Origin: Eurosta solidaginis
Taxonomy: Eukaryota; Arthropoda; Insecta; Diptera; Tephritidae
DNA length: 64,000 nt
Direction: 5' to 3'
Assembly (NCBI RefSeq): GCF_040869045.1
Contig: NC_090322.1
Span: 82,049,675-82,113,674 of the forward strand
Below are positions 44,201-64,000 of this stretch, piece after piece. Below the pieces are notes generated by a model. That model saw only the letters and a program-made list of their open reading frames with translations, ran no database searches and had not been told where the DNA came from. Numbering within the stretch: the first letter of the stretch is position 1; each line of letters begins with the position of its first letter. The translations under genes were made by a program, and so were the position numbers.

Positions 44201-44938
44201 TTTCAAACGTTGTTTCTCATTTTATATCCTTTAATATTAGAGTTAAATATGATAAAAACTGCGTACGAATTTTTAACCCATTCGTTTTGGTTACTCGCGC
44301 GCCCCGTCCTCGTGTAGCCTACATATTGAGATTTTCTAAATAAACTTACCGGCCTAAAGGTTAAGCATGCTTTAAATAATTAAGTCAATTTGTTCAACAA
44401 ACACTCAGCTGTTGTTTGCTTCAGAGCAACAATTTTTGAAATAGTTATTAAAACTTTTTAAAGGTTGTCAAACGTTGTTTCTCGGTTTATATCCTTTAAT
44501 GCTGGAGATACGTATTGTTTAACCAATTCGTTTTGATTACTCGACCACTCCGTCCTCGTGTAGCCTACATATTGCGTTTTTCTAAAGAAACTTACCGACT
44601 TAAAGGTTAAGCATGGGTAAAATATATAAGTCGTTTTTTTTTCAACAAATTTGAGTAGATCACTCAGCAGTTGTTGGCTTCAGAACAATAATTTTTGATA
44701 TAGTTATTAAAAGCTTTTTTGTTTCTCGTTTTATATCCTTTGATATTAGAGTTAAATATGATAAAAACTGCGTACGAATTTTTTAACCCATTCGTTTTGG
44801 TTACTCGACCGCTCCGTCCTCGTGTAGCCTACATATTGCGTTTTTCTAAATAAACTTACTGGCCTAAAGGTTAGGCATGGTTAAAATATATAAGTGGTTT
44901 TTTTTTCAACAAATTTGAGTAGATCACTCAGCAGTTGT
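44201..44938. repeat. Distal satellite edge
   Basis: The last two to three monomers before the array ends. They contain small deletions, including loss of part of a monomer near 44,395-44,405 and a longer loss near 44,710. The array breaks off inside 'cactcagcagttgt' near 44,938. Confidence 0.8.
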
Positions 44939-45083
44939 CTTGACGCGAACCAAAACTCCAAAAGTTTGACCGGTCAAGTTTCAATGGAACGAAAATAAAT
45001 AAAAAGGTTGGTATTAATTTTAAGTATAAAGGTGCTAGTAATTATAAATTATTGTTCGATATGTATATATGTAACAATATTGA

Positions 45084-45361
45084 ATTACAGGTTACCTTGT
45101 ACAATCTGGAACAGGACGGCTGCGTGCGATCGGTAAGCAATCAAAATCCAAGTGGCGGAAAACTTATAAAAATGTTAGCACCGGTTGTTGTCGAACGGTT
45201 TATTCATCTGTGCGATGTTTTAACATAGATAGCTTAAACCGTTCGATCACCTCTGTTAACCTTATTGAACAAAAAGAAATACTAGGGCTACTTCAAAAGT
45301 ATGAGGTTTTGGACCGCTGGTCTAAACATGCCGGCCCCTTGCGTTACGCAACCCTGAACTA
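45084..45361 (+). other. Exon-like open frame, uncertain
   Basis: A frame without an ATG stays open for about 92 codons (45,084-45,361, stop TAG) and begins near an acceptor-like 'ttgaattacag' ending at 45,090. Its translation is mixed in composition, with 'SKSKWRKTY', 'NLIEQKEILGLLQKYE' and 'VLDRWSKHAGPLRYATLN'. A second frame (ATG at 45,061 to TAG at 45,228, 55 residues) overlaps it. Its GC content is higher than that of its surroundings. I do not recognise either product. It may be a fragment of a displaced exon, part of an unrecognised element, or chance. Confidence 0.25.
45191..45246. repeat. 12-bp perfect inverted repeat
   Basis: 'tcgaacggttta' (45,191-45,202) and 'taaaccgttcga' (45,235-45,246) are perfect complements separated by 32 bp. 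The repeat occurs once in the window. Its function is unknown. Confidence 0.8.
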
Positions 45362-46030
45362 GAACCGAACGCTTGCACCGCCGTGTTCCATTGACTACTG
45401 AAGGCTATTTCTTATTATCTAAGTATTTCTATCGCCTAGCCCTAGAACCTTGTACCTAGGCTAGATAGAGAAAAGAAAAAATAGGAACAAAAGTGGTTTC
45501 AAATTTCAATGGCACATTTATTCATTAAAAAAAATCAGATACGTATGCATATTCAAAATTTACTGTGAATTCACTTTTAGGTTCATCTGAATATAAATGC
45601 GAAAAGAAAGAAAAAATGATAAAATAAATAAAAATAAGTATATAGTTAGCCCGACAGGACCCATCTAAATATAGTATTTTGGGCCAGTAGTGGACCCAGT
45701 ATTCCAGCTGGAATGACCCCTAGTAAGATTTTAGGAAAAATGTCTGCACCCAGCACGAGACGAACTGGAGAAGCGACGTGGAAGCGCGGGTCCGCTAAAC
45801 GTAGATTTGAATATTTCCCCGCTATTGTGTCAACTAGTGTGGTTAGTGGCGTGCGTCGATTGAACTTCCGGAGGCATACTGCGTGCGTGGTGATGGTCGT
45901 GGATTGACCATGCTTCCCGCGCAACTTGATGAAGCAGCCCATCTGGCGATTTATGTAGGTCACACCTAGCTGCAGCTCTCGCGCGAAATCTTCACTGATT
46001 ATTGAGGTGGTGGCACAGGGATCGATCAGT

Positions 46031-46056
46031 GCCCTCACGAGATGCCCTCACGAGAT
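46031..46056. repeat. 13-bp tandem duplication causing a frameshift
   Basis: 'gccctcacgagat' occurs twice head to tail (46,031-46,043 and 46,044-46,056). Copies A and B have it once, at about 52,980 and 59,872. It shifts the copy 0 frame at the protease motif. Confidence 0.92.
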
Positions 46057-46183
46057 GCAGGCGCTCTCGGGCTTCAATTTTCACCACCGCGGTTGGAGCC
46101 ACTGATGTGAGGGACTGAACTGGTTGTGGTGGCGCTCTTACTGGGGCCACTCTTCCGGACCGGAAATTCCTCGAAGGCGTGAG

Positions 46184-46423
46184 GTGGAATGCTGAAGATT
46201 CCACTCTCTCGTGTTGACGGTGTTTACGGGATCTCTGTCGGGCTTTTGCGCTCTTTCTATTAGACGGTTGGAAAGTTTTCATTTCCAATCCGCTGGTTCT
46301 TTTTATTTCGTGCTGAAGTTGCGGTCGGAAACGCTGAGGTTCCGATCCGCCGACTATAGCTGGGTGGAATGCATGTGATTCCACTCCAGCCAGGTTTTCT
46401 AGGCGGAAAGCGAATGTTTCCGC
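46184..46423. repeat. Array of five covarying 21-bp inverted repeats (copy 0)
   Basis: On the plus strand the arms are gtggaat/attccac (46,184-46,204), ttggaaa/tttccaa (46,268-46,288), tcggaa/ttccga (46,325-46,345), gtggaat/attccac (46,364-46,384) and gcggaaa/tttccgc (46,403-46,423). Loops are 7 nt, or 9 nt in the third. Start-to-start spacing is 84, 57, 39 and 39 bp. The core ggaa..ttcc is fixed, and the outer two bases differ between units but always pair within a unit. On the coding strand each unit reads xExxxFx: VESSAFH, LEMKTFQ, SEPQRFR, VESHAFH, AETFAFR. Confidence 0.85.
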
Positions 46424-47095
46424 TCCAGAATGAGTATCGTTTCCTACTTCAGAGGCGTACAACGAGATTGCATCGCTGTCATCGGCGTCGTTTCCCTTGG
46501 GTCGTGGTGGTCGTCGTTGGCGTTTTGGTGCTTCCCCAATGTGGTCTATATGGAGCATTGTGTGATGGTGCTCGCTGCATCGACGGCATAATCACTCGTT
46601 GGTGCATTGAGATGCGAGGTGAGCCTCTGATAAGCAATTAGTGCAATAATTATATATGTGAGTATCGCGTAAACGTGCGGCTGGTTCTTTCGCCCGGAAA
46701 ACTGGGCATACTCTAAGCGGGTGCCGGTTACCGCATACACGACATACCAATGCGTAATGGTTTGCTTCAGCCCGTTTGCGAATGGTGGTGAAACGCGTCA
46801 TTTCTGTAAATAATAATTTTCCCATTGCAGCGATTTGCTTTTTTTTTGTTTTTGGTGGCGAGCAATATTTGCATGTTTGACTCTCTTATTGGTGGTTGGT
46901 GGAAACAGGGTTAACTAATTTACTAGCAAAATAGCCATTGAACTATTGTCGAACAAGTTCATTTGGCCAACAAATGATATCCTGGTGCCCTCAACACAAA
47001 CCCAACGAAGAAAGAAAAACGCTTCGAAAAATGCCCTAGAAAATCACCCACACATGCCATTCATTCAGTTCTGTACATTTATTTTGATGTGCACC

Positions 47096-47155
47096 CAATT
47101 CTTGGTCAAACTTAATCGTAATGGTCAGTGACCATAACGTTTGACCGAAAAATTG
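47096..47155. repeat. Long imperfect hairpin in the spacer
   Basis: 'ggtcaaac' pairs with 'gtttgacc' around an inner dyad 'tggtca g tgacca', and outer 'caatt' with 'aattg' extends it to about 60 bp with bulges. The same hairpin is kept at 54,033-54,092 and 60,923-60,982, about 270-330 bp upstream of each X gag start. Confidence 0.75.
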
Positions 47156-48232
47156 ATGGTATCCAGTGCCTATACTATCATGCAAATGTATCGAATTTAG
47201 TACATATTCGATAGCATATGCATATCCCTATAATGATGAAGCCGGAAGTTTTTGATTAAAAGTGAAACGTGTCGGTTTAATGTTTTTACGTGCGGGAGTG
47301 GTTTTCGCGTTTGCGACTTTGGATTTCCACGGGAATAACCAAGAAATAAGTTTCGTGAGTGATAGTGAAAATATAAAAACTGAAATAATATGAGGAAAGT
47401 GAAAAAAACGTGCGCCTTTAATTAAGGCAAAATTAATTCCTCAATCAAGTAAAAGAGCCTGTAAGGCCATTGTTTTCGTTTAAACATACAATAAGTGGCG
47501 GTGGTGTGATTTAGTTTTGTTGTTGTGCATAGTGAAAATGAAATAATGAAATGGCATGTTCCTACGGCACTTGTGTGTTAGGGTGTTTCCAAAAAAGTTG
47601 TTTTTTTTTTTGCTTGAGAATTCTCCTTTTTTTGTTTTAATAAAAGTTATGACTGGAACGACCAGTGAAACTAAAATAGGTAATTCTATAGTTTAGCTTG
47701 CTACTGCGTCAGGGTGTCCCAAATGTTGTGAAAAAAAAAAAAAATTTTTTTTTGTTGTGTGCGGTTTATAAATGACGGAAAAGGGTGAATTCAATGGAAT
47801 TGGTAGCGGATAAATATTTCTTGAGTGACGCTGCCTTTACCATTGTGATATCCTTTTCCCATCCTCCAATACACTTCGCGAAAGAAAAGCGACATAAAAA
47901 TTTACATTTTGAGGGCACCCTTATAGTGCAGTTTTAGCAACATAAAACGGCTTAAGCTAGGTGAATACGTTTGTATGTGTGGTAGAGTGTGTGGCCCCCT
48001 AAGAAAAATAAATATTTTTGCACTTGCAAAAAAAAATAAATTGTTTTCTGAAAAAGTAGATTTTCGAGGTCAGTCCAATGTGTCTGCACGCGGTATGTAT
48101 CTTTGTACATATGATAATGGTGACTACCCAGCAGGCAGTCTGTTCGGCCATGAGCCGAAAAAAAGCCCCGAAAGAAGTGAAGTTAAAGGGTGAAAAAACA
48201 TTATTAGCTGAAGTTGCTAAACATGTTCGGTA

Positions 48233-48250
48233 CCCTTTTTTTTCACTTTT
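48233..48250 (-). promoter_or_regulatory. Candidate polypurine tract (spacer 0/A)
   Basis: On the minus strand 'aaaagtgaaaaaaaaggg' lies about 115 bp past the integrase stop. In the other spacers the equivalents (55,132-55,148; 62,003-62,020) are followed by 'tg', as an LTR start would be; here the next bases are 'ta'. Its position fits a polypurine tract before a 3' LTR. No matching LTR end was found, so this is tentative. Confidence 0.3.
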
Positions 48251-48365
48251 AAAAGGACAAGACAAACCTTTGACGTGCATGCATTAGGCTGAAGCATACA
48301 AAATTTTTTTTTTTTTGATATTAAATATGATGTGGTATTCTGTTTGTACCTTCTTTGCTTTGTGC

Positions 48366-49549
48366 TTATTGTGTCTGTAAATTTGGGGTTGTCGTATCTT
48401 CGGTTTCCGCACTATTCGACGGTAGCAATACCAATTTGACGAGCGGTCTTGTCACTTCTCCTCTCTCAGTTAGGACATCTACCACGCGTACCCGGTTGTC
48501 GGAACCAAGGTGTAATTTGACAACTCGCCCTAATCTCCATTCATTGGGTGGCAGGCTGTCCTCCCGTATGACCACCATGTCTCCCACTTTTATGTTGGAC
48601 TTAGGATGTTTCCACTTGGTCCGCTTTTGAAGTTCTGAAAGATATTCTGTTTTCCACCTTCTGCAAAAGTTCTGATGCAAAGCCTTGAGTTTTTGCCACC
48701 TGTTCACAATTGAGGCCGGGTTTTCATCGACCTTGATTTCCGCTGGGGCTAGTAGGTGCCCTCCGACTAGAAAATGCCCTGGCGTTAGAGGCTCAAGGTC
48801 TGATGGCTCATTTGAGGCCGGACTGAGGGGTCGTGAGATAGACACGCCTCAATTCTGCATAATAATGTATTAAATTCTTCGAAGGTGAACTTTTGGCTGA
48901 AAGCTACCTTTTTGAAATGGGCTTTGAAACTTTTCACCCCAGCTTCCCACAGCCCCTCCATGTGCGGAGCCCCCGGTGGTATAAAATGCCAAGTCAATGC
49001 CTGATGGGAATGTTTGGAAAGCGTTTGGGTGCGGGCGTCAGCCAGAAAGGCTTTAAATTCCGCCTTAAATGCGCGTGACGCTCCGAAGAAATTGGTCCCG
49101 TTGTCTGAGTAGACATTTCTTGGACATCCACGTCTGGCTATGAATCGAGCAAAAGCTGCTGCAAAGGATGAGGTGCTCAAGTCGCTAGTGCCCTCTAAGT
49201 GGATGGCCTTAGTCGAAAAGCACACGAACAGACAAGCGTAACCTTTGGAAATGCGACACCCGCGCCCACTATAACTTTTAATATCGAAAGAGCCTGTGAA
49301 ATCCACCCCGGTATTAGTAAATGCGCGCGAGAAAGTCGTTCGCTCCTGGGGAAGAATGCCCATAAGCTGACTTTGGGCGCGTCTCTTATGGATTATACAT
49401 ATTTTGCAATTGTGAATGATTGACCTAATCAGGGTTTTTACTTTTATAATCCAGTACTGCGTTCGAATAATACGCAGCATGAGTTGGTTTTCACCGTGGA
49501 GAGTATCCTCATGAACAAACTGGACAAATAGACGTGTAAACCTACAATT
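48366..49549 (-). pseudogene. Copy A integrase (family Y), frameshifted
   Basis: It follows in frame after the stop at 49,552-49,550. An HHCC-type zinc site is visible (HX4H, then 'HNCKIC'), followed by the DDE core: 'GVDFTG', 'YSDNGTNF' and 'GLWEAGVKS'. The tail has 'PLTPGHFLVGGHLLAP' and a DUF5641-like end with 'KVGDMVVIREDSLPPNEWRLGRV', stopping at 48,366. The frame slips by one base at about 48,834-48,842 ('tgagatag' on the plus strand), splitting the protein into pieces 48,785-49,480 and 48,366-48,845. Copies B and C have the same slip. It would have inserted the cDNA, and is not functional as it stands. Confidence 0.88.
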
Positions 49550-51877
49550 TTATGGTAGTATTATTGGATGGCGCTCAGGATAAGGCATATCTTTGGATGC
49601 GCCGAGTCGCCCGCCAACCCTTAATACTTCGTTTTCATCAAGGAAAGGGTTAAGTGAGAGGATTTCGCTTTTAGACTCAAGTGATACTTTGGCTTTCAAT
49701 TTCGTGATCTCTGATCCGTAATGTTGCTTCTGAGCGAGTTTTATCAGACGGTTCGTCGTTGTTTTAATTTCATCGGATGAAATTAGACAAGAGTCCGGCT
49801 GGCTAGAAGCTCTTGTTTTCGGATGGGTTCTTTGAAGGAATCTCAAAATATAAGATATTACCCTCAAAGCTCGCAAAAGACTGGAAAACCTGTCAAGAAT
49901 ATCACTAATGTTGTCATTAATTGTTGCTGCATGAGCCTGCACTCGTTTTTCCTCAACGTTTGTTGTGAAGTCCGTTTCCTGGGTTGGCCACTTTTCCTTA
50001 TCTTCTTGTAGCCAAGAAGGTCCCTGCCACCACAGAGTGTTGTTGATCAATTCTTGAGCTAAAACGCCTCTGCTCGCTAAGTCTGCTGGATTTATACCTG
50101 AATCCACGTGATACCAAGTCGAATTTCCTACTTTGTCTAAGATTTTTGTGACTCGATGAGATACAAAAGTAGACCATGAACATGGGGGTTTGCGTATCCA
50201 CGCCAGTACGATCGTCGAATCAGTCCAAAGATGTATCGTAAGGTGGTCGAAGTCCACATTGTTGGATATCGATTCGATGATTTCGGCCAGTAGTACCGCC
50301 CCGCAAAGTTCCAATCTTGGGAGCGAAATGCATTTGACTGGAGCCACTCTCGTCTTTGCTAAAAGCAGGTTAACAAGTATGCCGTCATCCCTTTCCACGC
50401 GCAAGTAGACTGCTGCGGCATATGCCTTTTCAGATGCATCACAGAAACCGTGAATCTCGACGTTTTCAGTTGGCGAATATAATACCCATCGAGGAATCCG
50501 TATCTGGTCGATTTCCTTGTATGTTCTGGCAAAATTGTGCCATTTATCTAATGTGGAAGGAGATAACGTTTCATCCCAACCAGTACCCTCTAGCCATATA
50601 TTTTGCATAATAATTTTTGCGACAATAATTGTAGGAGCTAACCACCCTAATGGATCGAAGAGTTTCGCTATAGTTGACAAGACTGTCCTTTTGGTGAAAG
50701 TGGAATCTTCTTCTATTGACTTTGCTATAAAGTAGAATTGGTCAGAATATGCATTCCACTTAATGCCAAGAGCTTTCACGCTACTGGAATCCTCGAATTC
50801 TAAAAAATCTTCGCTAAGTAGATGAGCTTTTGGAATGCCTTTCAATACTTCGTTACTATTCGAGGTCCATTTACGTAAAGGAAACCCGGCTGATTTCAAT
50901 ATCCCTGAAACTTCATTTCTTGCCTTTACCGCGGAGGCAATAGTATGACCACCGGAAAGCACGTCATCTACGTACATATTTTTTCTCAAAATGTTAGAGG
51001 CAATTGGATGAGAACTTTCTGAGTCATCAGCCAGTTGGAGTAAAGTCCTTACTGCTAAATAAGGAGCACAATTTATACCAAAAGTAACCGTTTTAAGCTC
51101 GTAGAGACTGATTGGTTCATCTGGGCTTGGGCGGAAGACTATTCGTTGGTACTTTGTATGGTTAGGCTCTACTAGGATTTGCCTATACATTTTTTCAATA
51201 TCGCTGTTGAAAACATATTTGAAAAGTCTCCAGCGAATAATTAAGGTCGGTAAATCCGACTGAAGCACTGGGCCTGGGATAAGAATTTCGTTCAGACTGA
51301 CGCCATTCGAAGTTGAAGACGAGGCATTAAAAACCACCCTAACTTTTGTTGAAATACTCTCTTCTTTATTAACAGCATGATGAGGCAGATAATAATTGTC
51401 CACAGCGTCAGCTGACTGTATTGATGTTATTTTCGACATATGACCCATTTTCCCGTACTCCATAAGTACTCTATTATATTCCATTTGCAACTCTGGGTTT
51501 TTTCTAAGCCGCGTCCCAATTTTGTAAAATTGAGGACACGCGATTTTCAATGAGAGCCCCAGGCAAATATCTGCAGGAAATTCCGCTCTGAACGGAAGGG
51601 ACACGATGTACCTTCCTTCTGAGTTTCGCTGCGTTGTGCGCTCGTAGAGTTCTTCGCATATTTTTTCTTCTACTGTGGGGGATTTTGCCTTGGATATATC
51701 CTCAATTTCCCAGAATGACCTAAGCTGACTGTCTAAAGCCACTTCATTGAAAAAGGAAACCCGATTATTATTAGTTGGGCTGGCTGCATCAGCACGACCA
51801 GTCAGTATCCAACCGAAAACTGTTTCTTGGGCTACAAGTGTACTGAGAATGTTTTTCTTAATCCCGCCTAAGATTAT
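49550..51877 (-). pseudogene. Copy A protease end, reverse transcriptase and RNase H (family Y)
   Basis: The frame continues after the nonsense codon at 51,880-51,878. RT signatures are 'VRVVFNASS', 'FNSDIEKMYRQI', 'FGINCAPYLA' and the catalytic 'YVDD' (50,963-50,974). RNase H follows with 'HGFCDASEKAY', 'LPRLELCGA' (acidic E), 'LWTDSTIVLAWI' and 'NPADLASRG'. The frame ends 'HPIILP' with TAA at 49,552-49,550, just before the integrase zinc site. Since the next frame is in phase, the stop probably interrupts one former polyprotein. The same stop occurs in B and C. Confidence 0.9.
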
Positions 51878-53761
51878 TTACGGGTAGATGTCTACGCCCA
51901 GAACAAGATCGGCTTGTTCATTGACAAAGAATCGTTTGTCCGCCAGTACAAGGTCAGGAAATGCCTGTTGTGTTAGTGAACTGACGTCATGTGTGGGTAA
52001 ATTGCCTGTCAATTGTGGTAAAACTAACACAATAACATCAATTGATATAAGTGGGTCAACCGGTGACCGCAGTTCTATGGCACATGCCTCTTTTACCTGC
52101 GCAGAGATTGAACTATTGATGCCCGAAACTTGAGCATGCATTTTCCTAGTTGGCAGGTTGATTCTGCGTCTGAGCCTGTCTGTAATGAAAGAGCATTCAG
52201 AGCCAGAATCTATGAGGGCTCTTGCCGAAAGATCTGTACCATTATAGCGAATGGTTACACGAGCCGTTCCAAGTAATACACCTCTACTAGTATTCGCGAA
52301 ATTTGATTTCATATTAATTGTTTCTCCTGAACCTTTTGTTTTTTCTGAACTGTGGTGTAATCGCGCTTGTTTCGACGTAGACGCCGAAACATCCAATGAT
52401 TCTACAGCCGCTTTCGCCAGAGAAGGCTTCGTTTGAGCTGTCTGCAAATGCAGAAGGGAATGATGTCGTGTATGGCACGTGCTGCAGTTGTGTGAGCTTG
52501 TACACTTTGACACGGAATGCCTCGAAGAGAGACAGTTCAAACAGCAGTTGTTACGTTTGATAAAGGAAACCCTTTCAGATGGTGTCAAATTTCTGAATTT
52601 CTGGCATGTGTGGATTTTGTGGTCGCTGTTTTTGCACATTTTACATGCGTATTTGGCGACGGTGGTTTGGAATGACCCTAACTTTTTAGGCGGTGGTTCA
52701 GAGGAATGCTTGTTGCTTTGACCCTTGGGTGGTTTCGAAGGCTTGATTCCTCTTAAACCTGAAACCGATTCTAAGGTTTGGAACCTATTTGTGAGGAATC
52801 GATCCATATCCGCCCGCTTGGACGTTACTGCGTGCCTGGTGATGGTCGTGGATTGACCATGCTTCCCGCGCAACTTGATGAAGCAGCCCATCTGGCGATT
52901 TATGTAGGTCACACCTAGCTGCAGCTCTCGCGCGAAATCTTCGCTGATTATCGAGGTGGTGGCACAGGGATCGATCAATGCCCTCACGAGATGCGGACGC
53001 TCTCGGGCTTCAATTTTCACCACCGCGGTTCGAGCCACTGATGTGAGGGACTGAACTGGTTGTGGTGGCGCTCTTACTGGGGCCACTCTTCCGGACCGGA
53101 AATTCCTCGAAGGCGTGAGGTGGAATGCTGAAGATTCCACTCTCTCGTGTTGACGGTGTTTACGGGATATCTGTCGGGCTTTTGCGCTCTTTCTATTAGA
53201 CGGTTGGAAAGTTTTCATTTCCAATCCGCTGGTTCTTTTTATTTCGTGCTGAAGTTGCGGTCGGAAACGCTGAGGTTCCGATCCGCCGACTATAGCTGGG
53301 TGGAATGCATGTGATTCCACTCCAGCCAGGTTTTCTAGGCGGAAAGCGAATGTTTCCGCTCCAGAATGAGTATCGTTTCCTACTTCAGAGGCGTACAACG
53401 AGATTGAATCGCTGTCATCGGCGTCGTTTCCCTTGGGTCGTGGTGGTCGTCGTTGGCGTTTTGGTGCTTCCCCAATGTGGTCTATATGGAGCATTGTGTG
53501 ATGGTGCTCGCTACATCGACGGCATAATCCCTCGTTGGTGCATTGAGATGCGAGGTGAGCCTCTGATAAGCAATTAGTGCAATAATTATATATGTGAGTA
53601 TCGCGTAAACGTGCGGCTGGTTCTTTCGCCCGGAAAACTGGGCATACTCTAAGCGGGTGCCGGTTACCGCATACACGACATACCAATGCGTAATGGTTTG
53701 CTTCAGCCCGTTTGCGAATGGTGGTGAAACGCGTCATTTCTGTAAATAATAATTTTCCCAT
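51878..53761 (-). pseudogene. Copy A chimeric gag-protease (family X fused to family Y)
   Basis: This is a 627-codon open frame. Residues 1 to about 311 match copy 0 (family X): zinc knuckles at C28-C40 and C61-C74, the covarying repeat region, and the first half of a protease with 'ALIDPC' near residue 259. From about 312 (52,826) it is family Y: knuckles 'CKMCKNSDHKIHTC' and 'CLNCLSSRHSVSKC' (both CX2CX4HX4C), then 'CSTCHTRHH' and a protease with intact 'ALIDSGSECS' near residue 516. The joint is in frame. A nonsense codon at 51,880-51,878 ends the frame where copy B has Gln. Two zinc-knuckle and protease modules in series are not usual for BEL/Pao. Confidence 0.88.
53120..53359. repeat. 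Array of five covarying 21-bp inverted repeats (copy A)
   Basis: The same five dyads as copy 0 lie at 53,120-53,140, 53,204-53,224, 53,261-53,281, 53,300-53,320 and 53,339-53,359, all with arms unchanged. They fall in X gag residues of roughly 134-214. Confidence 0.85.
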
Positions 53762-55254
53762 TGCATCGATTTGCTTTTTTTTTTGTTCTTGGTGGCGAGC
53801 AATATTTGGTTGTTTGACTCTCTTATTGGTGGTTGGTGGAAACAGGGTTAACTAATTTACTAGCAAAATAGCAATTGAGCTATTGTCGAACAAGTTCATT
53901 TGGCCAACAAATGATATCCTGGCGCCCTCAACACAAACCCAACGAAGAAAGAAAAACGCTTCGAAAAATGCCCTAGAAAATCACCCACACATGCCATTCA
54001 TTCAGTTCTATACATTTATTTTGATGTGCACCCAATTCTTGGTCAAACTTAATCGTAATGGTCAGTGACCATAACGTTTGACCGAAAAATTGATGGTATC
54101 CAGTGCCTATACTATCATGCAAATGTATCGAATTTAGTACATATTCGATAGCATATGCATATCCCTATAATGATGAAGCCGGAAGTTTTTGATTAAAAGT
54201 GAAACGTGTCGGTTTAATGTTTTTACGTGCGGGAGTGGTTTTCGCGTTTGCTACTTTGGATTTCCACGGGAATAACCAAGAAATAAGTCTCGTGAAAAAA
54301 TGTGCGCCTTTAATTAAGGCAAAATTTATTCCTCAATCAAGTAAAAGAGCCTGTAAGGCCATTGTTTTCGTTTAAACATACAATAAGTGGCGGTGGTGTG
54401 ATTTAGTTTTGTTGTTGTGCATAGTGAAAATGAAATAATGAAATGGCATGTTCCTACGGCACTTGTATGTTAGGGTGTTTCCAAAAAAGTTGTTTTTTTT
54501 TTGCTGGAGAATTCCCATTTTTTTGTTTTAATAAAAGTTATGACTGGAACGACCAGTGAAACTAAAATAGGTAATTCTAGAGTTTAGCTTGCTACTGCGT
54601 CAGGGTGTCCCAAATGTTGTGAAAAAAAAAAAATTTTTTTTTGTTGTGTGCGGTTTATAAATGACGGAAAAGGGTGAATTCAATGGAATTGGTAGCAGAT
54701 AAATATTTCTTGAGTGACGCTGCCTTTACCATTGTGATATCATTTTCCCATCCTCCAATACACTTCGCGAAAGAAAAGCGACATAAAAATTTACATTTTG
54801 AGGGCACCCTTATAGTGCAGTTTTAGCAACATAAAACGGCTTAAGCTAGGTGAATACGTTTGTATGTGCGGTAGAGTGTGTGGCCCCCTAAGAAAAATAA
54901 ATATTTTTGCACTTGCAAAAAAAAATAAATTGTTTTCTGAAAAAGTAGATTTTCGAGGTCAGTCCAATGTGTCTGCATGCGGTATGTATCTTTGTACATA
55001 TGATAATGGTGACTACCCAGCAGGCAGTCTGTTCGGCCATGAGCCGAAAAAAAGCCCCGAAAGAAGTGAAGTTAAAGGGTGAAAAAACATTATTAGCTGA
55101 AGTTGCTAAACATGTTCGGCACCCTTTTTTTCACTTTTAAAAGGACAAGACAAACCTTTGACGTGCATGCATTAGGCTGAAGCATACAAAAATTTTTTTT
55201 TTTTTGATATTAAATATGATGTGGTATTCTGTTTGTACCTTCTTTGCTTTGTGC
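53762..55254 (-). other. Inter-unit spacer A/B
   Basis: It is equivalent to 46,826-48,365 but lacks 45 bp at about 54,294, between short 'gtga' repeats, a loss shared with the B/C spacer. It contains the hairpin at 54,033-54,092 and a polypurine-like tract (minus strand) at 55,132-55,148. No gene is seen. Confidence 0.65.
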
Positions 55255-56441
55255 TTATTGTGTCTGTAAATTTGGGGTTGTCGTATCTTCGGTTTCCGCA
55301 CTATTCGACGGTAGCAATACCAATTTGACGAGCGGTCTTGTCACTTCTCCTCTCTCAGTTAGGACATCTACCACGCGTACCCGGTTGTCGGAACCAAGGT
55401 GTAATTTGACAACTCGCCCTAATCTCCATTCATTGGGTGGCAGGCTGTCCTCCCGTATGACCACCATGTCTCCCACTTTTATGTTGGACTTAGGATGTTT
55501 CCACTTGGTCCGCTTTTGAAGTTCTGAAAGATATTCTGTTTTCCACCTTCTGCAAAATTTCTGATGCAAAGCCTGCTTGAGTTTTTGCCACCTGTTCACA
55601 ATTGAGGCCGGGTTTTCATCGACCTTGATTTCCGCTGGGGCTAGTAGGTGCCCTCCGACTAGAAAATGCCCTGGCGTCAGAGGCTCAAGGTCTGATGGCT
55701 CATTTGAGGCCGGACTGAGGGGTCCTGAGTTAGACACGCCTCAATTCTGCATAATAATGTATTAAATTCTTCGAAGGTGAACTTTTGGCTGAAAGCTACC
55801 TTTTTGAAATGGGCTTTGAAACTTTTCACCCCAGCATCCCACGGCCCCCCCATGTGCGGAGCCCCCGGTGGTATAAAATGCCAAGTCAATGCCTGATGGG
55901 AATGTTTGGAAAGCGTTTGGGTGCGGGCGTCAGCCAGAAAGGCTTTAAATTCCGCCTTAAATGCCCGTCACGCTCCGAAGAAATTGGTCCCGTTGTCTGA
56001 GTAGACATTTCTGGGGCATCCACGTCTGGCTATGAATCGAGCAAAAGCTGCTGCAAAGGATGAGGTGCTCAAGTCGCTAGTGCCCTCTAAGTGGATGGCC
56101 TTAGTCGAAAAGCACACGAACAGACAAGCGTAACCTTTGGAAATGCGACACCCGCGCCCACTATAACTTTTAATATCGAAAGGGCCTGTGAAATCCACCC
56201 CGGTATTAGTAAATGCGCGCGAGAAAGTCGTTCGCTCCTGGGGAAGAATGCCCATAAGCTGACTTTGGGCGCGTCTCTTATGGATTATACATATTTTGCA
56301 ATTGTGAATGATTGACCTAATCAGGGTTTTTACTTTTATAATCCAGTACTGCGTTCGAATAATACGCAGCATGAGTTGGTTTTCACCGTGGAGAGAATCC
56401 TCATGAACAAACTGGACAAATAGACGTGTAAACCTACATTT
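55255..56441 (-). pseudogene. Copy B integrase (family Y), doubly broken
   Basis: It has the same domain order as copy A: zinc site, 'GVDFTGPF', 'YSDNGTNF', 'FIPPGAPHMGGPWDAG' and the DUF5641-like tail ending at 55,255. It shares the one-base slip with A and C (about 55,726-55,733). A private nonsense codon lies at 55,970-55,968, right after 'NGTNFFGA', where A and C have Ser. 'PWDAG' replaces 'LWEAG', so the third acidic residue of the DDE triad is Asp here. Open pieces are 55,968-56,372, 55,677-55,889 and 55,255-55,737. Confidence 0.87.
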
Positions 56442-59400
56442 TTATGGTAGTATTATTGGATGGCGCTCAGGATAAGGCATATCTTTGGATGCGCCGAGTC
56501 GCCCGCCAACCCTTAATACTTCGTTTTCATCAAGGAAAGGGTTAAGTGAGAGGATTTCGCTTTTAGACTCAAGTGATACTTTGGCTTTCAATTTCGTGAT
56601 CTCTGATCCGTAATGTTGCTTCTGAGCGAGTTTTATCAGACGGTTCGTCGTTGTTTTAATTTCATCGGATGAAATTAGACAAGAGTCCGGCTGGCTAGAA
56701 GCTCTTGTTTTCGGATGGGTTCTTTGAAGGAACCTCAAAATATACGATATTACCCTCAAAGCTCGCGAAAGACTGGAAAATTTGTCAAGAATATCACTAA
56801 TGTTGTCACTAATTGTTGCTGCATGAGCCTGCACTCGTTTTTCCTCAACGTTTGTTTTGAAGTCCGTCTCCTGGGTTGGCCACTTTTCCTTATCTTCTTG
56901 TAGCCAAGAAGGTCCCTGCCACCACAGAGTGTTGTTGATCAATTCTTGAGCTAAAACGCCTCTGCTCGCTAAGTCTGCTGGATTTGTACCCGAATCCACG
57001 TGATACCAAGTCGAATTTCCTACTTTGTCTAAGATTTTTGTGACTCGATGAGATACAAAAGTAGACCATGAACATGGGGGTTTGCGTATCCACGCCAGTA
57101 CGATCGTCGAATCAGTCCAAAGATGTATCGTAAGGTGGTCGAAGTCCACATTGTTGGATATCGATTCGATGATTTCGGCCAGTAGTACCGCCCCGCAAAG
57201 TTCCAATCTTGGGAGCGAAATGGTTTTGACTGGAGCCACTCTCGTCTTTGCTAAAAGCAGGTTAACAAGTATGCCGTCATCCCTTTCCACGCGCAAGTAG
57301 ACTGATGCGGTATATGCCTTTTCAGATGCATCACAGAAACCATGAATCTCGAAGTTTTCAGTGGGCGAATATAATACCCATCGAGGAATCCGTATCTGGT
57401 CGATTTCCTTGTATGTTCTGGCAAAATTGTGCCATTTATCTAATGTGGAAGGAGATAACGTTTCATCCCAACCAGTACCCTCTAGCCATATATTTTGCAT
57501 AATAATTTTTGCGACAATAATTGTAGGAGCTAGCCACCCTAATGGATCGAAGAGTTTCGCTATAGTTGACAAGACTGTCCTTTTGGTGAAAGTGGAATCT
57601 TCTTCTATTGACCTTGCTATAAAGTAGAATTGGTCAGAATGTGCATTCCACCTAATGCCAAGAGCTTTCACGCTACTGTAATCCTCGAATTCTAAAAAAT
57701 CTTTGCTCAGTAGATGAGCTTTTGGAATGCCTTTCAATACTTCGTTACTATTCGAGGTCCATTTACGTAAAGGAAACCCGGCTGATTTCAATATCCCTGA
57801 AACTTCATTTCTTGCCTTTACCGCGGAGGCAATAGTATGACCACCGGAAAGCACGTCATCTACGTACATATTTTTTCTCAAAATGTTAGAGGCAACTGGA
57901 TGAGAATTTTCTGAGTCATCAGCCAGTTGGAGTAAAGTCCTTATTGCTAAATAAGGAGCACAATTTATACCAAAAGTAACCGTTTTAAGCTCGTAGAGAC
58001 TGATTGGTTCATCTGGGCTTGGGCGGAAGACTATTCGTTGGTACTTTGTATGGTTAGGCTCTACTAGGATTTGCCTATACATTTTTTCAATATCGCTGTT
58101 GAAAACATATTTGAAAAGTCTCCAGCGAATAATTAAGGTCGGTAAATCCGACTGAAGCACTGGGCCTGGGATAAGAATTTCGTTCAGACTGACGCCATTC
58201 GAAGTTGAAGACGAGGCATTAAAAACCACCCTAACTTTTGTTGAAATACTTTCTTCTTTATTAACAGCATGATGAGGCAGATAATAATTGTCCACAGCGT
58301 CAGCTGACTGTATTGACGTTATTTTCGACATATGACCCATTTTCTCGTACTCCATAAGTACTCTATTATATTCCATTTGCAACTCTGGGTTTTTTCTAAG
58401 TCGCGTCCCAATTTTGTAAAATTGAGGACACGCGATTTTCAATGAGAGCCCCAGGCAAATATCTGCAGGAAATTCCGCTCTGAACGGAAGGGACACGATG
58501 TATCTTCCTTCTGAGTTTCGCTGCGTTGTGCGCTCGTAGAGTTTTTCGCATATTTTTTCTTCTACTGTGGGGGATTTTGCCTTGGATATATCCTCAATTT
58601 CCCAGAATGACCTAAGCTGACTGTCTAAAGCCACTTCATTGAAAAAGGAAACCCGATTATTATTAGTTGGGCTGGCTGCATCAGCACGACCAGTCAGTAT
58701 CCAACCGAAAACTGTTTCTTGGGCTAAAAGTGTACTGAGAATATTTTTCTTAATCCCGCCTAAGATTATTTGCGGGTAGATGTCTCCGCCCAGAACAAGA
58801 TCGACTTGTTCATTGACAAAGAATCGTTTGTCCGCCAGTACAAGGTCAGGGAATGCCTGTTGTGTTAGTGAACTGACGTCATGTGTGGGTAAATTGCCTG
58901 TCAAATATGGTAAAACTAACACAATAACATCAATTGATATAAGCGGGTCAACCGGTGACCGCAGTTCTATGGCACATGCCTCTTTCACCTGCGCAGAGAT
59001 TGAACTATTGATGCCCGAAACTTGAGCATGCATTTTCCTAGTTGGCAGGTTGATTCTGCGTCTGAGCCTTTCTGTAATTAAAGAGCATTCAGAGCCAGAA
59101 TCTATGAGGGCTCTTGCCGAAAAATATGTACCATTATAGCAAATGGTTACACGAGCCGTTCCAAGTAATACACCTCTACTAGTATTCGCGAAATTTGATT
59201 TCATATTAATTGTTTCTCCTGAACCTTTTGTTTTTTCCGAACTGTGGCGTAATCGCGCTTGTTTCGACGTAGACGCCGAAACATCCAATGATTCTACAGC
59301 CGCTTTCGCCAGAGAAGGCTTCGTTTGAGCTGTCTGCAAATGCAGAAGGGAATGATGTCGTGTATGGCACGTGCTGCAGTTGTGTGAGCTTGTACACTTT

Positions 59401-60512
59401 GACACGGAATGCCTCGAAGAGAGACAGTTCAAACAGCAGTTGTTACGTTTGATAAAGGAAACCCTTTCAGATGGTGTCAAATTTCTGAATTTCTGGCATG
59501 TGTGGATTTTGTGGTCGCTGTTTTTGCACATTTTACATGCGTATTTGGCGACGGTGGTTTGGAATGACACTAACTGTTTAGGCGGTGGTTCAGAGGAATG
59601 ATTGTTGCTTTGACCCTTGGGTGGTTTCGAAGGCTTGATTCCTCTTAAACCTGAAACCGATTCTAAGGTTTGGAACCTATTTGTGAGGAATCGATCCATA
59701 TCCGCCCACTTGGACGTTACTGCGTGCCTGGTGATGGTCGTGGATTGACCATGCTTCCCGCGCAACTTGATGAAGCAGCCCATCTGGCGATTTATGTAGG
59801 TCACACCTAGCTGCAGCTCTCGCGCGAAATCTTCGCTGATTATTGAGGTGGTGGCACAGGGATCGATCAATGCCCTCACGAGATGCAGACGCTCTCGGGC
59901 TTCAATTTTCACCACCGCGGTTGGAGCCACTGATGTGAGGGACTGAACTGGTTGTGGTGGCGCTCTTACTGGGGCCACTCTTCCGGACCGGAAATTCCTC
60001 GAAGGCGTGAGGTGGAATGCTGAAGATTCCACTCTTTCGTGTTGACGGTGTTTACGGGATCTCTGTCGGGCTTTTGCGCTCTTTCTATTAGACGGTTGGA
60101 AAGTTTTCATTTCCAATCCGCTGGTTCTTTTTATTTCGTGCTGAAGTTGCGGTCGGAAACGCTGAGGTTCCGATCCGCCGACTATAGCTGGATGGAATGC
60201 ATGTGATTCCACTCCAGCCAGGTTTTCTAGGCGGAAAGCGAATGTTTCCGCTCCAGGATGAGTATCGTTTCCTACTTCAGAGGCGTACAACGAGATTGCA
60301 TCGCTGTCATCGGAGTCGTTTCCCTTGGGTCGTGGTGGTCGTCGTTGGCGTTTTGGTGCTTCCCGAATGTGGTCTATATGGAGCATTGTGTGATGGTGCT
60401 CGCTGCATCGACGGCATAATCCCTCGTTGGTGCATTGAGATGCGAGGTGAGCCTCTGATAAGCAATTAGTGCAATAATTATATATGTGAGTATCGCGTAA
60501 ACGTGCGGCTGG
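56442..60512 (-). pseudogene. Copy B chimeric gag-pol: X gag part, Y gag, protease, RT, RNase H
   Basis: The longest open frame of the window (1,314 codons from an internal ATG at 60,386) shows that X gag, Y gag-protease and Y RT/RNase H are one continuous frame. The X/Y joint is at about 59,718. The second protease keeps 'ALIDSGSECS' and runs through 'LLAQETVFGWILTG' into RT with 'YVDD' at 57,855-57,866 and RNase H with 'FCDASEKAY', 'LPRLELCGA' and 'WTDSTIVLAW'. It ends at the TAA (56,444-56,442) shared with A and C. The N-terminal 46 codons are cut off by a private nonsense codon. It is the best template for the unit's architecture. Confidence 0.9.
60012..60251. repeat. Array of five covarying 21-bp inverted repeats (copy B)
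   Basis: Dyads lie at 60,012-60,032, 60,096-60,116, 60,153-60,173, 60,192-60,212 and 60,231-60,251. One outer base of the fourth has changed (g to a at 60,192), which breaks one pair. The change is silent in the protein (His kept), so the break came after the array formed. Confidence 0.83.
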
Positions 60513-60653
60513 TTATTTCGCCCGGAAAACCGGGCATACTCTAAGCGGGTGCCGGTTACCGCATACACGACATACCAATGCGCAATGGTTTGCTTCAGCC
60601 CGTTTGCGAATGGTGGTGAAACGCGTAATTTCTGTAAATAATAATTTTCCCAT
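60513..60653 (-). pseudogene. Copy B X gag N-terminus, cut by a nonsense codon
   Basis: It starts MGKLLFTE at 60,653, as in copies 0 and A, and includes the first zinc knuckle C28-C40. It ends at TAA 60,515-60,513 in place of Glu47. Only one base (60,515) differs from copy A there. An in-frame ATG 16 codons upstream is not supported, because the A-rich stretch between them differs among copies. Confidence 0.85.
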
Positions 60654-62137
60654 TGCAGCGATTTTCTTTTTTTTGTTTTTGGTGGCGAGCAATATTTGCA
60701 TGTTTGACTCTCTTATTGGTGGTTGGTGGAAACAGGGTTAACTAATTTACTAGCAAAATAGCCATTGAACTATTGTCGAACAAGTTCATTTGGCCAACAA
60801 ATGATATCCTGGCGCCCTCAACACAAACCCAACGAAGAAAGAAAAATGCTCCGAAAAATGCCCTAGAAAATCACCCACACATGCCATTCATTCAGTTCTA
60901 TACATTTATTTTGATGTGCACCCAATTCTTGGTCAAACTTAATCGTAATGGTCAGTGACCATAACGTTTGACCGAAAAATTGATGGTATCCAGTGCCTAT
61001 ACTATCATGCAAATGTATCGAATTTAGTACATATTCGATAGCATATATATCCCTATAATGATGAAGCCGGAAGTTTTTGATTAAAAGTGAAACGTGTCGG
61101 TTTAATGTTTTTACGTGCGGGAGTGGTTTTCGCGTTTGCTACTTTGGATTTCCACGGGAATAACCAAGAAATAAGTCTCGTGAAAAAATGTGCGCCTTTA
61201 ATTAAGGCAAAATTAATTCCTCAATCAAGTAAAAGAGCCTGTAAGGCCATTGTTTTCGTTTAAACATACAATAAGTGGCGGTGGTGTGATTTAGTTTTGT
61301 TGTTGTGCATAGTGAAAATGAAATAATGAAATGGCATGTTCCTACGGCACTTGTGTTAGGGTGTTTCCAAAAAAGTTGTTTTTTTTTTTTGCTTGAGAAT
61401 TCCCCTTTTTTTGTTTTAATAAAAGTTATGACTGGAACGACCAGTGAAACTAAAATAGGTAATTCTAGAGTTTAGCTTGCTACTGCGTCAGGGTGTCCCA
61501 AATGTTGTGAAAAAAAAAATTTTTTTTTGTTGTGTGCGGTTTATAAATGACGGAAAAGGGTGAATTCAATGGAATTGCTAGCGGATAAATATTTCTTGAG
61601 TGACGCTGCCTTTACCATTGTGATATCATTTTCCCATCCTACACTTCGCGAAAGAAAAGCGACATAAAAATTTACATTTTGAGGGCACCCTTATAGTGCA
61701 GTTTTAGCAACATAAAACGGCTTAAGCTAGGTGAATACGTTTGTATGTGCGGTAGAGTGTGTGGCCCCCTAAGAAAAATAAATATTTTTGCACTTGCAAA
61801 AAAAAATAAATTGTTTTCTGAAAAAGTAGATTTTCGAGGTCAGTCCAATGTGTCTGCACGCGGTATGTATCTTTGTACATATGATAATGGTGACTACCCA
61901 GCAGGCAGTCTGTTCGGCCATGAGCCGAAAAAAAGCCCCGAAAGAAGTGAAGTTAAAGGGTGAAAAAACATTATTAGCTGAAGTTGCTAAACATGTTCGG
62001 CACCCTTTTTTTTCACTTTTAAAAGGACAAGACAAACCTTTGACGTGCATGCATTAGGCTGAACCATACAACAAATTTTTATTTTTTTGATATTAAATAT
62101 GATGTGGTATTCTGTTTGTACCTTCTTTGCTTTGTGC
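60654..62137 (-). other. Inter-unit spacer B/C
   Basis: It is like spacer A/B and also lacks the 45 bp. It has private small losses near 61,045, 61,352 and 61,638. It contains the hairpin at 60,923-60,982 and a polypurine-like tract (minus strand) at 62,003-62,020. No gene is seen. Confidence 0.65.
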
Positions 62138-63320
62138 TTATTGTGTCTGTAAATTTGGGGATGCCGTATCTTCGGTTTCCGCACTATTCGACGGTAGCAA
62201 TACCAATTTGACGAGCGGTCTTGTCACTTCTCCTCTCTCAGTTAGGACATCTACCACGCGTACCCGGTTGTCGGAGCCAAGGTGTAATTTGACAACTCGC
62301 CCTAATCTACATTCATTGGGTGGCAGGCTGTCCTCCCGTATGACCACCATGTCTCCCACTTTTATGTTGGACTTAGGATGTTTCCACTTGGTCCGCTTTT
62401 GAAGTTCTGAAAGATATTCTGTTTTCCACCTTCTGCAAAAGTTCTGATGCAAAGCCTTGAGTTTTTGCCACCTGTTCACAATTGAGGCCGGGTTTTCATC
62501 GACGTTGATTTCCGCTGGGGCTAGTAGGTGCCCTCCGTCTAGAAAATGCCCTGGCGTTAGAGGCTCAAGGTCTGATGGCTCATTTGAGGCCGGACTGAGG
62601 GATCGTGAGTTAGACACGCCTCAATTCTGCATAATAATGTATTAAATTCTTCAAAGGTGAACTTTTGGCTGAAAGCTACCTTTTTGAAATGGGCTTTGAA
62701 ACTTTTCACCCCAGCTTCCCACAGCCCCCCATGTGCGGAGCCCCCGGTGGTATAAAATGCCAAGTCAGTGCCTGATAGGAATGTTTGGAAAGCGTTTGGG
62801 TGCGGGCGTCAGCCAGAAAGGCTTTAAATTCCGCCTTAAATGCGCGTGACGCTCCGACGAAATTGGTCCCGTTGTCTGAGTAGACATTTCTGGGGCATCC
62901 ACGTCTGGCTATGAATCGAGCAAAAGCTGCTGCAAAGGATGAGGTGCTCAAGTCGCTAGTGCCCTCTAAGTGGATGGCCTTAGTCGAAAAGCACACGAAC
63001 AGACAAGCGTAACCTTTGGAAATGCGACACCCGCGCCCACTATAACTTTTAATATAGAAAGGGCCTGTGAAATCCACCCCGGTATTAGTAAATGCGAGCG
63101 AGAAAGTCGTTCGCTCCTGGGGAAGAATGCCCATAAGCTGACTTTGGGCGCGTCTCTTATGGATTGTACATATTTTGCAATTGTGAATGATTGACCTAAT
63201 CAGGGTTTTCACTTTTATAATCCAGTACTGCGTTCGAATAATACGCAGCATGAGTTGGTTTTCACCGTAGAGAGAATTCTCATGAACAAACTGGACAACT
63301 AGACGTGTAAACCTACAATT
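62138..63320 (-). pseudogene. Copy C integrase (family Y), doubly frameshifted
   Basis: Domains are as in copy A, with 'YSDNGTNFVGASRAF' intact. A private one-base loss in a C run on the plus strand (62,725-62,730; six C, against seven in copy B) shifts the frame at 'GAPHMGG', just before the catalytic Glu region. The shared slip lies at about 62,606-62,613. The tail ends at 62,138. Confidence 0.87.
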
Positions 63321-64000
63321 TTATGGTAGTATTATTGGATGGCGCTCAGGATAAGGCATATCTTTGGATGCGCCGAGTCGCCCGGCAACCCTTAATACTT
63401 CGTTTTCATCAAGGAAAGGGTTAAGTGAGAGGATTTCGCTTTTAGACTCAAGTGATACTTTGGCTTTCAATTTCGTGATCTCTGATCCGTAATGTTGCTT
63501 CTGAGCGAGTTTTATCAGACGGTTCGTCGTTGTTTTAATTTCATCGAATGAAATTAGACAAGAGTCCGGCTGGCTAGAAGCTCTTGTTTTCGGATGGGTT
63601 CTTTGAAGGAATCTCAAAATATACGATATTACCCTCAAAGCTCGCGAAAGACTGGAAAAGCTGTCAAGAATATCACTAATGTTGTCATTAATTGTTGCTG
63701 CATGAGCCTGCACTCGTTTTTCCTCAACGTTTGTTGTGAAGTCCGTTTCCTGGGATGGCAACTTTTCCTTATCTTCTTGTAGCCAAGAAGGTCCCTGCCA
63801 CCACAGAGTGTTGTTGATCAATTCTTGAGCTAAAACGCCTCTGCTCGCTAAGTCTGCTGGATTTATACCTGAATCCACGTGATACCAAGTCGAATTTCCT
63901 ACTTTGTCTAAGATTTTTGTGACTCGATGAGATACAAAAGTAGACCATGAACATGGGGGTTTGCGTATCCACGCCAGTACGATCGTCGAATCAGTCCAAA
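63321..64000 (-). pseudogene. Copy C RNase H end (family Y), runs off the window
   Basis: Only the C-terminal part is inside the window. 'DSGINPADLASRG', 'NNTLWWQGPSWLQEDKEK' and 'NRLIKLAQKQHYGSEI' lead to 'HPIILP' and the same TAA (63,323-63,321) as A and B. The sequence is very close to copy A over the overlap and appears open to the right edge. Confidence 0.88.

Follow-up and report, generated by a model that had tools for sequence, protein, structure and literature searches.

Five short inverted repeats inside a Gag-like coding region keep their two arms complementary while the letters of the arms differ from repeat to repeat, and the question raised by this locus is what keeps the pairing. 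The window, meaning the whole 64,000-nucleotide stretch of DNA that was analysed, had received a first-pass annotation in which dyads were placed at 46184-46204, 46268-46288, 46325-46345, 46364-46384 and 46403-46423. All five lie at these positions and have the form described, four with 7-bp arms and a 7-nt loop and the one at 46325 with 6-bp arms and a 9-nt loop. Each has the fixed core GGAA-N9-TTCC, the outer pairs are as they had been read, and the reverse complementarity of codon 1 and codon 7 was confirmed. The observation is real and the structure had been understated: on the coding (minus) strand, each 21-nt dyad continues outward into a longer hairpin, of which it forms the upper stem. 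This structure is well supported; the function proposed below is what we infer from it, and the acting strand could be either. The features of the locus are listed in Table 1.

Table 1. Positions of the hairpin array and of associated features in the window
Feature	Position	Strand	Basis
Hairpin unit 1 of copy 1, in which a bulged A separates a lower stem of 6 bp, one of them G-U, from a 7-bp upper stem with a 7-nt loop	46397..46430	-	
Hairpin unit 2 of copy 1, in which a bulged A separates a lower stem of 6 bp, one of them G-U, from a 7-bp upper stem	46358..46391	-	
Hairpin unit 3 of copy 1, in which a bulged A separates a lower stem of 4 bp from an upper stem of 6 bp and a C.U mismatch	46319..46352	-	
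Hairpin unit 4 of copy 1, in which a bulged A separates a lower stem of 4 bp, one of them G-U, from a 7-bp upper stem	46262..46295	-	
Hairpin unit 5 of copy 1, in which a bulged A separates a lower stem made up of 3 bp, an A.A mismatch and 2 bp from a 7-bp upper stem	46178..46211	-	
Five hairpin units, copy 2, identical in sequence to copy 1	53114..53366	-	
Five hairpin units, copy 3, three single-base stem differences	60006..60258	-	
Near-palindrome ttccggaccggaa, outside the unit family	46153..46165	.	7.9 bits against the unit model
Gag-like ORF X in copy 1, with zinc knuckles, the array and a protease-like end	45646..46825	-	
ORF of copy 2, in which the X part runs in frame into a BEL/Pao Gag C-terminus with protease	51878..53761	-	
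BEL/Pao pol ORF downstream of copy 2 (Peptidase_A17; RVT_1 below cut-off)	49550..51742	-	Pfam
Candidate RNA-binding segment of copy 2, the basic stretch SNRKSAKARQISRKHRQHER that lies between units 4 and 5	53141..53200	-	Net charge

The element cluster and gene X

A long satellite array with units of ~278 bp and related periods of 67, 113 and 229 bp fills the window to ~44.9 kb (1-44938) and adjoins the element cluster. The retroelement copies lie beyond the satellite end on the minus strand and include the Gag-like gene X three times: copy 1 spans 45646-46825, copy 2 lies inside 51878-53761, and copy 3 extends downward from ~60.65 kb. A 649-nt query spanning the array matched copies 2 and 3 at 96.8%, gaps counted. 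The minus strand of 45646-64000 is arranged in tandem with a period of ~6.9 kb, X being joined directly to BEL/Pao gag-pro-pol; in copies 2 and 3 this fusion is in frame, and copy 1 has a 3' end unlike that of the BEL/Pao-fused copies. Two lesions break copy 1, namely a stop at 46592 and, within 46030-46058, a duplication of 13 bp; copy 3 has a stop at 60513. The X part of copy 2 (52826-53761) is open but has no end of its own, and the fused frame terminates at 51878, ahead of the polymerase. BEL/Pao domains, among them the Pao peptidase (PF05380, E 3.9e-52), were found in the ORFs downstream of copy 2 and not in X. RVT_1 reached E 4.5e-06 in the pol ORF that follows copy 2, its 26.9 bits falling short of the 29.6 required, and DUF5641 matched a separate downstream ORF (48369-48845) with E 1.5e-33, the scan downstream of copy 2 having covered ORFs other than 48785-49480. 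Every tandem unit also carries, on the plus strand, a weak U6-like match (47652-47749, 54543-54640 and 61431-61528; 20-22 bits, cut-off 44).

Judged by its sequence, X is Gag-like, with zinc knuckles and an altered protease. The zinc knuckles (residues 28-40 and 61-74, with a third Cys/His cluster) are followed by the array (residues 132-216) and then by the protease-like segment. The dyads had been assigned to a retroelement gag coding region, which holds; their place within it is corrected to the linker between the zinc knuckles and the protease-like segment. When compared by blastp, one sequence against one, with the BEL/Pao Gag part of its own fusion, X was identical at 35 of 111 residues (E 2e-14), the resemblance being that of the zinc-knuckle region. 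Pfam matches of X to proteases were weak and all under their cut-offs, the best match to a solved structure was a nucleocapsid protein at a non-significant E of 0.44, and neither X nor the fused copy 2 ORF gave a match to a capsid family. The D-S/T-G motif is the catalytic motif of such proteases. The BEL part carries D-S-G as its active-site motif and X reads D-P-C there (46015-46023 and the equivalent sites of the other two copies), so the X protease may be inactive. A net charge of +7 was found in the 20-residue window beginning two residues before the basic stretch SNRKSAKARQISRKHRQHER. Just inside the start of X (~46800-46825, and in the other copies) the sequence ttattatttacag resembles, by eye, a 3' splice site, and an upstream X exon is therefore possible.

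Hairpin architecture and covariation

The longer hairpin was first revealed by the fold of the coding strand, for units 1, 2 and 5. From the base upward it has 3-6 bp of lower stem, a single bulged A in the 5' arm, an upper stem of 7 positions and a 7-nt loop. The five 34-nt units align without gaps and have the bulged A in 5/5, always as a third codon position (GGA in four units, AGA in one). Pairing in the lower stem amounts to 6, 6, 4, 4 and 5 of 6 positions in units 1 to 5 (25/30 in total). The outer boundary of the upper stem is the same in all units, and the bulge and the upper-stem length are constant whereas the loops vary. The three units nearest the zinc knuckles are separated by 5-nt linkers and have a 39-nt period, unit 4 lies 57 nt beyond unit 3, and unit 5 lies 84 nt beyond unit 4. 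Of the differences in copy 3, one reduces an outer pair to G-U and two break lower-stem pairs on the coding strand.

The 13-nt near-perfect palindrome ttccggaccggaa, with copies at 53089 and 59981, adjoins the array and had been counted in the first-pass annotation as a sixth dyad. Its position is right, and its membership of the family does not stand, its 7.9 bits against the unit model corresponding to E 4.5. Since the centre of this near-palindrome is 1 nt, it cannot close as a 6-bp hairpin; a putative use would be RNA dimerisation.

Covariation was scored over 13 pairs in five units (65 cells, all from the five units of one gene). Pairing was found in 59/65 cells and was Watson-Crick in 56/65; eight of the 13 pairs change on both sides, and the other five are invariant, hence uninformative. 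The lower stem, which had played no part in the choice of the units, also covaries. When the 3' letters were shuffled among units, in tests that treat the five units without modelling their kinship, the covariation score of 0.592 (0.213 in the shuffles) was reached by 0/500, the eight pairs with two-sided change (4.6) by 5/500, and the 12 further pair types (7.6) by 8/500. Sliding the partners by 1-3 columns lowered pairing to 25.5-52.3%. Two-sided changes that keep pairing thus exceed chance within the five units of one gene. For units of common origin, 8-12 two-sided changes would be needed in the most parsimonious histories on 15 trees, and the floor, with any number of steps through paired ancestors and G-U included, would be 6-9 by tree.

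The codon-shuffled control proposed in the first-pass annotation was run in two forms, again without modelling the kinship of the units. Resampling of codons by usage gave a mean of 45.1 pairs and a maximum of 56 (n=20000), and permutation of synonymous codons gave a mean of 45.0 and a maximum of 55 (n=20000), so that 0/40000 shuffles reached the 59 pairs observed. The 25/30 of the lower stem alone was reached by 11/20000 (usage) and 0/20000 (permuted), and its 22 Watson-Crick pairs by 10 and 1, respectively, each of 20000. For the upper stem, with 34/35 positions paired, the Watson-Crick count was reached by none of 20000 in either form, and the count with G-U by 0 (usage) and 1 (permuted). 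The register of the lower stem was picked after the fold had been seen, and 16 registers were then compared: the best is that with the single bulged A (25/30), the next two (21 and 17) are the same register begun one or two pairs outward, and the remaining 13 have at most 13 pairs each. The covariation counts, the codon shuffles and the lower stem, left aside when the units were chosen, support the earlier proposal that something acts at the level of the nucleic acid, beyond chance and beyond the protein.

Fold energy, strand and searches for related arrays

The predicted fold of the array is more stable than that of dinucleotide shuffles on both strands (z -4.67 coding, -3.52 other strand; reached by 0/200 on each). 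Against 200 codon shuffles the z of the array window was -2.65 (coding) and -2.58 (antisense). Two further windows of the copy 2 ORF, 52772-53041 (z -3.22) and 52367-52636 (z -3.12), beat the array against codon shuffles, and because other ORF windows score as well, fold energy alone is weak evidence. In the minimum-energy fold of the coding strand, units 3 and 4 take other partners. The predicted probability of the local stem on this strand is near certainty for units 2 and 5 and lower for the others (unit 1, 0.31-0.32; unit 3, 0.33-0.56; unit 4, 0.56-0.58); on the antisense strand, unit 4 and most of unit 3 are likelier. Forcing all five hairpins would cost 2.9 kcal/mol on the coding strand and 0.9 on the antisense strand, and in these models the antisense strand favours local hairpins at least as much as the coding strand does. 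As for marks of strand in the pairs themselves, the reference array has 3 G-U cells (coding) against 2 A.C cells (G-U on the other strand), to which copy 3 adds 1 and 2, respectively.

When GGAA..TTCC pairs with every gap of 7-15 were collected from the 64 kb, 17 were found; 15 are the units of the three copies, all with gap 9, and the other two have gap 15 and unpaired adjacent bases. A flanked pattern with up to 2 mismatches gave 15 matches, all known units (expected 1.32; maximum 4 in 100 shuffles). The unit model found no further units in the window: the minus strand returned only the 15 known ones, and the plus strand returned the known unit places again at 10-15.2 bits, the best other place having 12.4 bits (E 0.16). 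A chance origin of the array is rejected by the GGAA..TTCC counts together with the covariation and the codon shuffles.

No Rfam family matched at the array up to E = 1 (44900-64000 scanned), and no homologues of X were found among viral contigs or prokaryote genome contigs. As a control, 15 stretches (on 14 viral contigs) with at least three GGAA-N9-TTCC at gaps of 7-37 were inspected. Both outer positions pair in every unit in three of them (L002, L008 and L014), always with the same letters, and covarying outer pairs were present in 0/15, two stretches (L003 and L012) being readable only up to the match. Two flanked units occurred at four places in the prokaryote genomes and at none in the viral contigs searched with the same pattern. 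At one of the four (L016, within a 630-aa ORF, other strand) both units pair their outer positions with different letters; this pairing is taken as chance because the search pattern forced the flanks, and two units alone would not convince. In the literature, searched by titles and the starts of abstracts, no array of similar kind was found, which is no proof of absence in print.

Proposed function and comparison with known systems

The reading that we favour, tentatively, is that five related hairpins in a Gag-like gene descend from one duplicated unit, have been selected for pairing, and serve in RNA as a landing platform for a protein that marks the transcript for packaging or assembly; it may well be right. 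One hairpin unit would have been duplicated into the five-unit array and its base pairing kept by selection. Because the loop sequence varies and the distance to the bulge is fixed, recognition would go through stem and bulge rather than loop, the bulged A exactly seven positions below the variable seven-nucleotide loop acting with the stem as the recognition feature. The array would then present several sites for protein on the retroelement RNA, and five sites in a row could provide avidity. The putative reader would most simply be the zinc-knuckle, Arg-rich Gag-like product of X itself, and by such recognition the RNA may be singled out to be packaged or assembled into particles. This product is the closest candidate because, in the portion of PMC5035971 consulted, a retroviral zinc-finger nucleocapsid binds a packaging stem-loop and the packaging signals of several retroviruses extend into the gag coding sequence. 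Weighing against the proposal are the broken X genes of copies 1 and 3 and the missing X end of copy 2, the two lower-stem pairs lost in copy 3, the even balance of strand marks, the alternative partners of units 3 and 4 in the coding-strand fold, and the modest z against codon shuffles.

A stronger form of this proposal, which is possible but which we consider doubtful, is that the linker is primarily an RNA device, its tandem bulged-A hairpins forming an operator array read by the element's own Gag-like protein and the repeated peptide being a by-product. If this were true, insects would have an operator array of the phage coat-protein type, carried either by a retroelement or by a host gene of retroelement origin. 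The locus looks like a case of dual coding in which RNA pairing dictates amino acids, the outer residues varying while the pairs are kept. To our knowledge, the choice of RNA for packaging by BEL/Pao elements has not been worked out, and a literature search, mostly of titles, returned nothing on how these elements make it; a compact repeated hairpin would offer a direct handle on it.

Among the options raised in the first-pass annotation, RNA hairpins fit best. One alternative is a repeated protein motif (G-x-E-x-x-x-F-x-P) with codon bias and no role for the nucleic acid. The units are in frame and share E and F (5/5), a preceding G (four) and P (three), as this would have it, but the residues at the outer paired positions differ among units (V, L, S, A against H, Q, R) though pairing is kept, and shuffles that preserve protein and codon usage do not reach the observed pairing; on these grounds the explanation is rejected as scarcely credible. 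DNA sites for a dimeric protein, an option of the earlier annotation, would suit a GGAA-N9-TTCC core fixed with its spacing in 5/5. They fit poorly, since such sites require neither the mirroring of the outer variable bases, seen in 5/5 units of copies 1 and 2, nor the bulge; an extra A on the 5' side alone, followed by further pairing, is unexpected of a dimer site, and this reading is very improbable. The copying process suggested earlier could act on the nucleic acid: template switching at imperfect inverted repeats, in replication or reverse transcription and after duplication of the units, would have improved the match of the arms. Such switching needs no function, can change both arms at once and suits a reverse-transcribed element, and the Watson-Crick pairing of most cells (56/65) speaks for it too. 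A copied arm should nevertheless drop the bulge, and the bulged A, flanked by pairs on both sides, stays in 5/5 units, which copying does not predict. The constant outer boundary of the upper stem also counts against it, and copying in place of selection is an unlikely account.

A host RNA-binding protein could read the hairpins instead, for example in transport or localisation of the transcript, as Egalitarian-BicD does with the RNA of the I factor, a retrotransposon, in Drosophila. The localisation signal of the I factor sits in coding sequence and the Egalitarian-BicD machinery reads bulged stems, according to the available part of PMC13186709. In the same portion of that source, the five solved signals have in common two helices, an upper and a lower one, each 6 bp or longer, with a short segment carrying 3'-strand bulges between them, and 5'-strand bulges are tolerated without being a shared feature. 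The coding RNA of the array has its sole bulge on the 5' strand (5/5) and a lower helix of 6 bp in only 2/5 units. An antisense transcript would put the bulge on the 3' strand, the side used by these signals, and would fit the bulge side but not the helix length. A signal of the Egalitarian-BicD type is rejected on this comparison, and reading by a host protein in general is not likely.

The packaging signals of RSV, FIV, MPMV and MMTV resemble the array in being structured RNA in or near gag that is read by a zinc-finger Gag; as described in the part of PMC5035971 at hand, they are located in the 5' leader and the start of gag, whereas the array consists of five hairpins of one type downstream of the zinc-knuckle codons. 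The packaging region of Ty1 likewise belongs to an LTR retrotransposon and is a structured, Gag-bound RNA with palindromes near the 5' end, but it uses a pseudoknot and two palindromes, and the portion of PMC8396678 consulted does not mention a repeated array of bulged hairpins. The Egalitarian-BicD signals, as presented in the available part of PMC13186709, are like the array in being bulged stem-loops in insect transcripts, one of them in retrotransposon coding sequence, and differ in that both of their flanking helices measure 6 bp or more and the bulges belong to the 3' strand. In the main text of a BEL/Pao survey (PMC3118150) the terms 'hairpin' and 'secondary structure' have 0 occurrences. 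In copies 2 and 3 the ORF that carries the array runs on in frame into BEL/Pao gag-pol, and relative to BEL/Pao the X part is an extra module with zinc knuckles and a protease-like segment. The coat-protein operators of MS2 and PP7 are short hairpins in which a 5'-strand A bulges out at a constant distance from the loop. No homology being claimed, the array differs from these operators in loop size, bulge distance and organism, and shares with them the same plan of a 5' bulged A.
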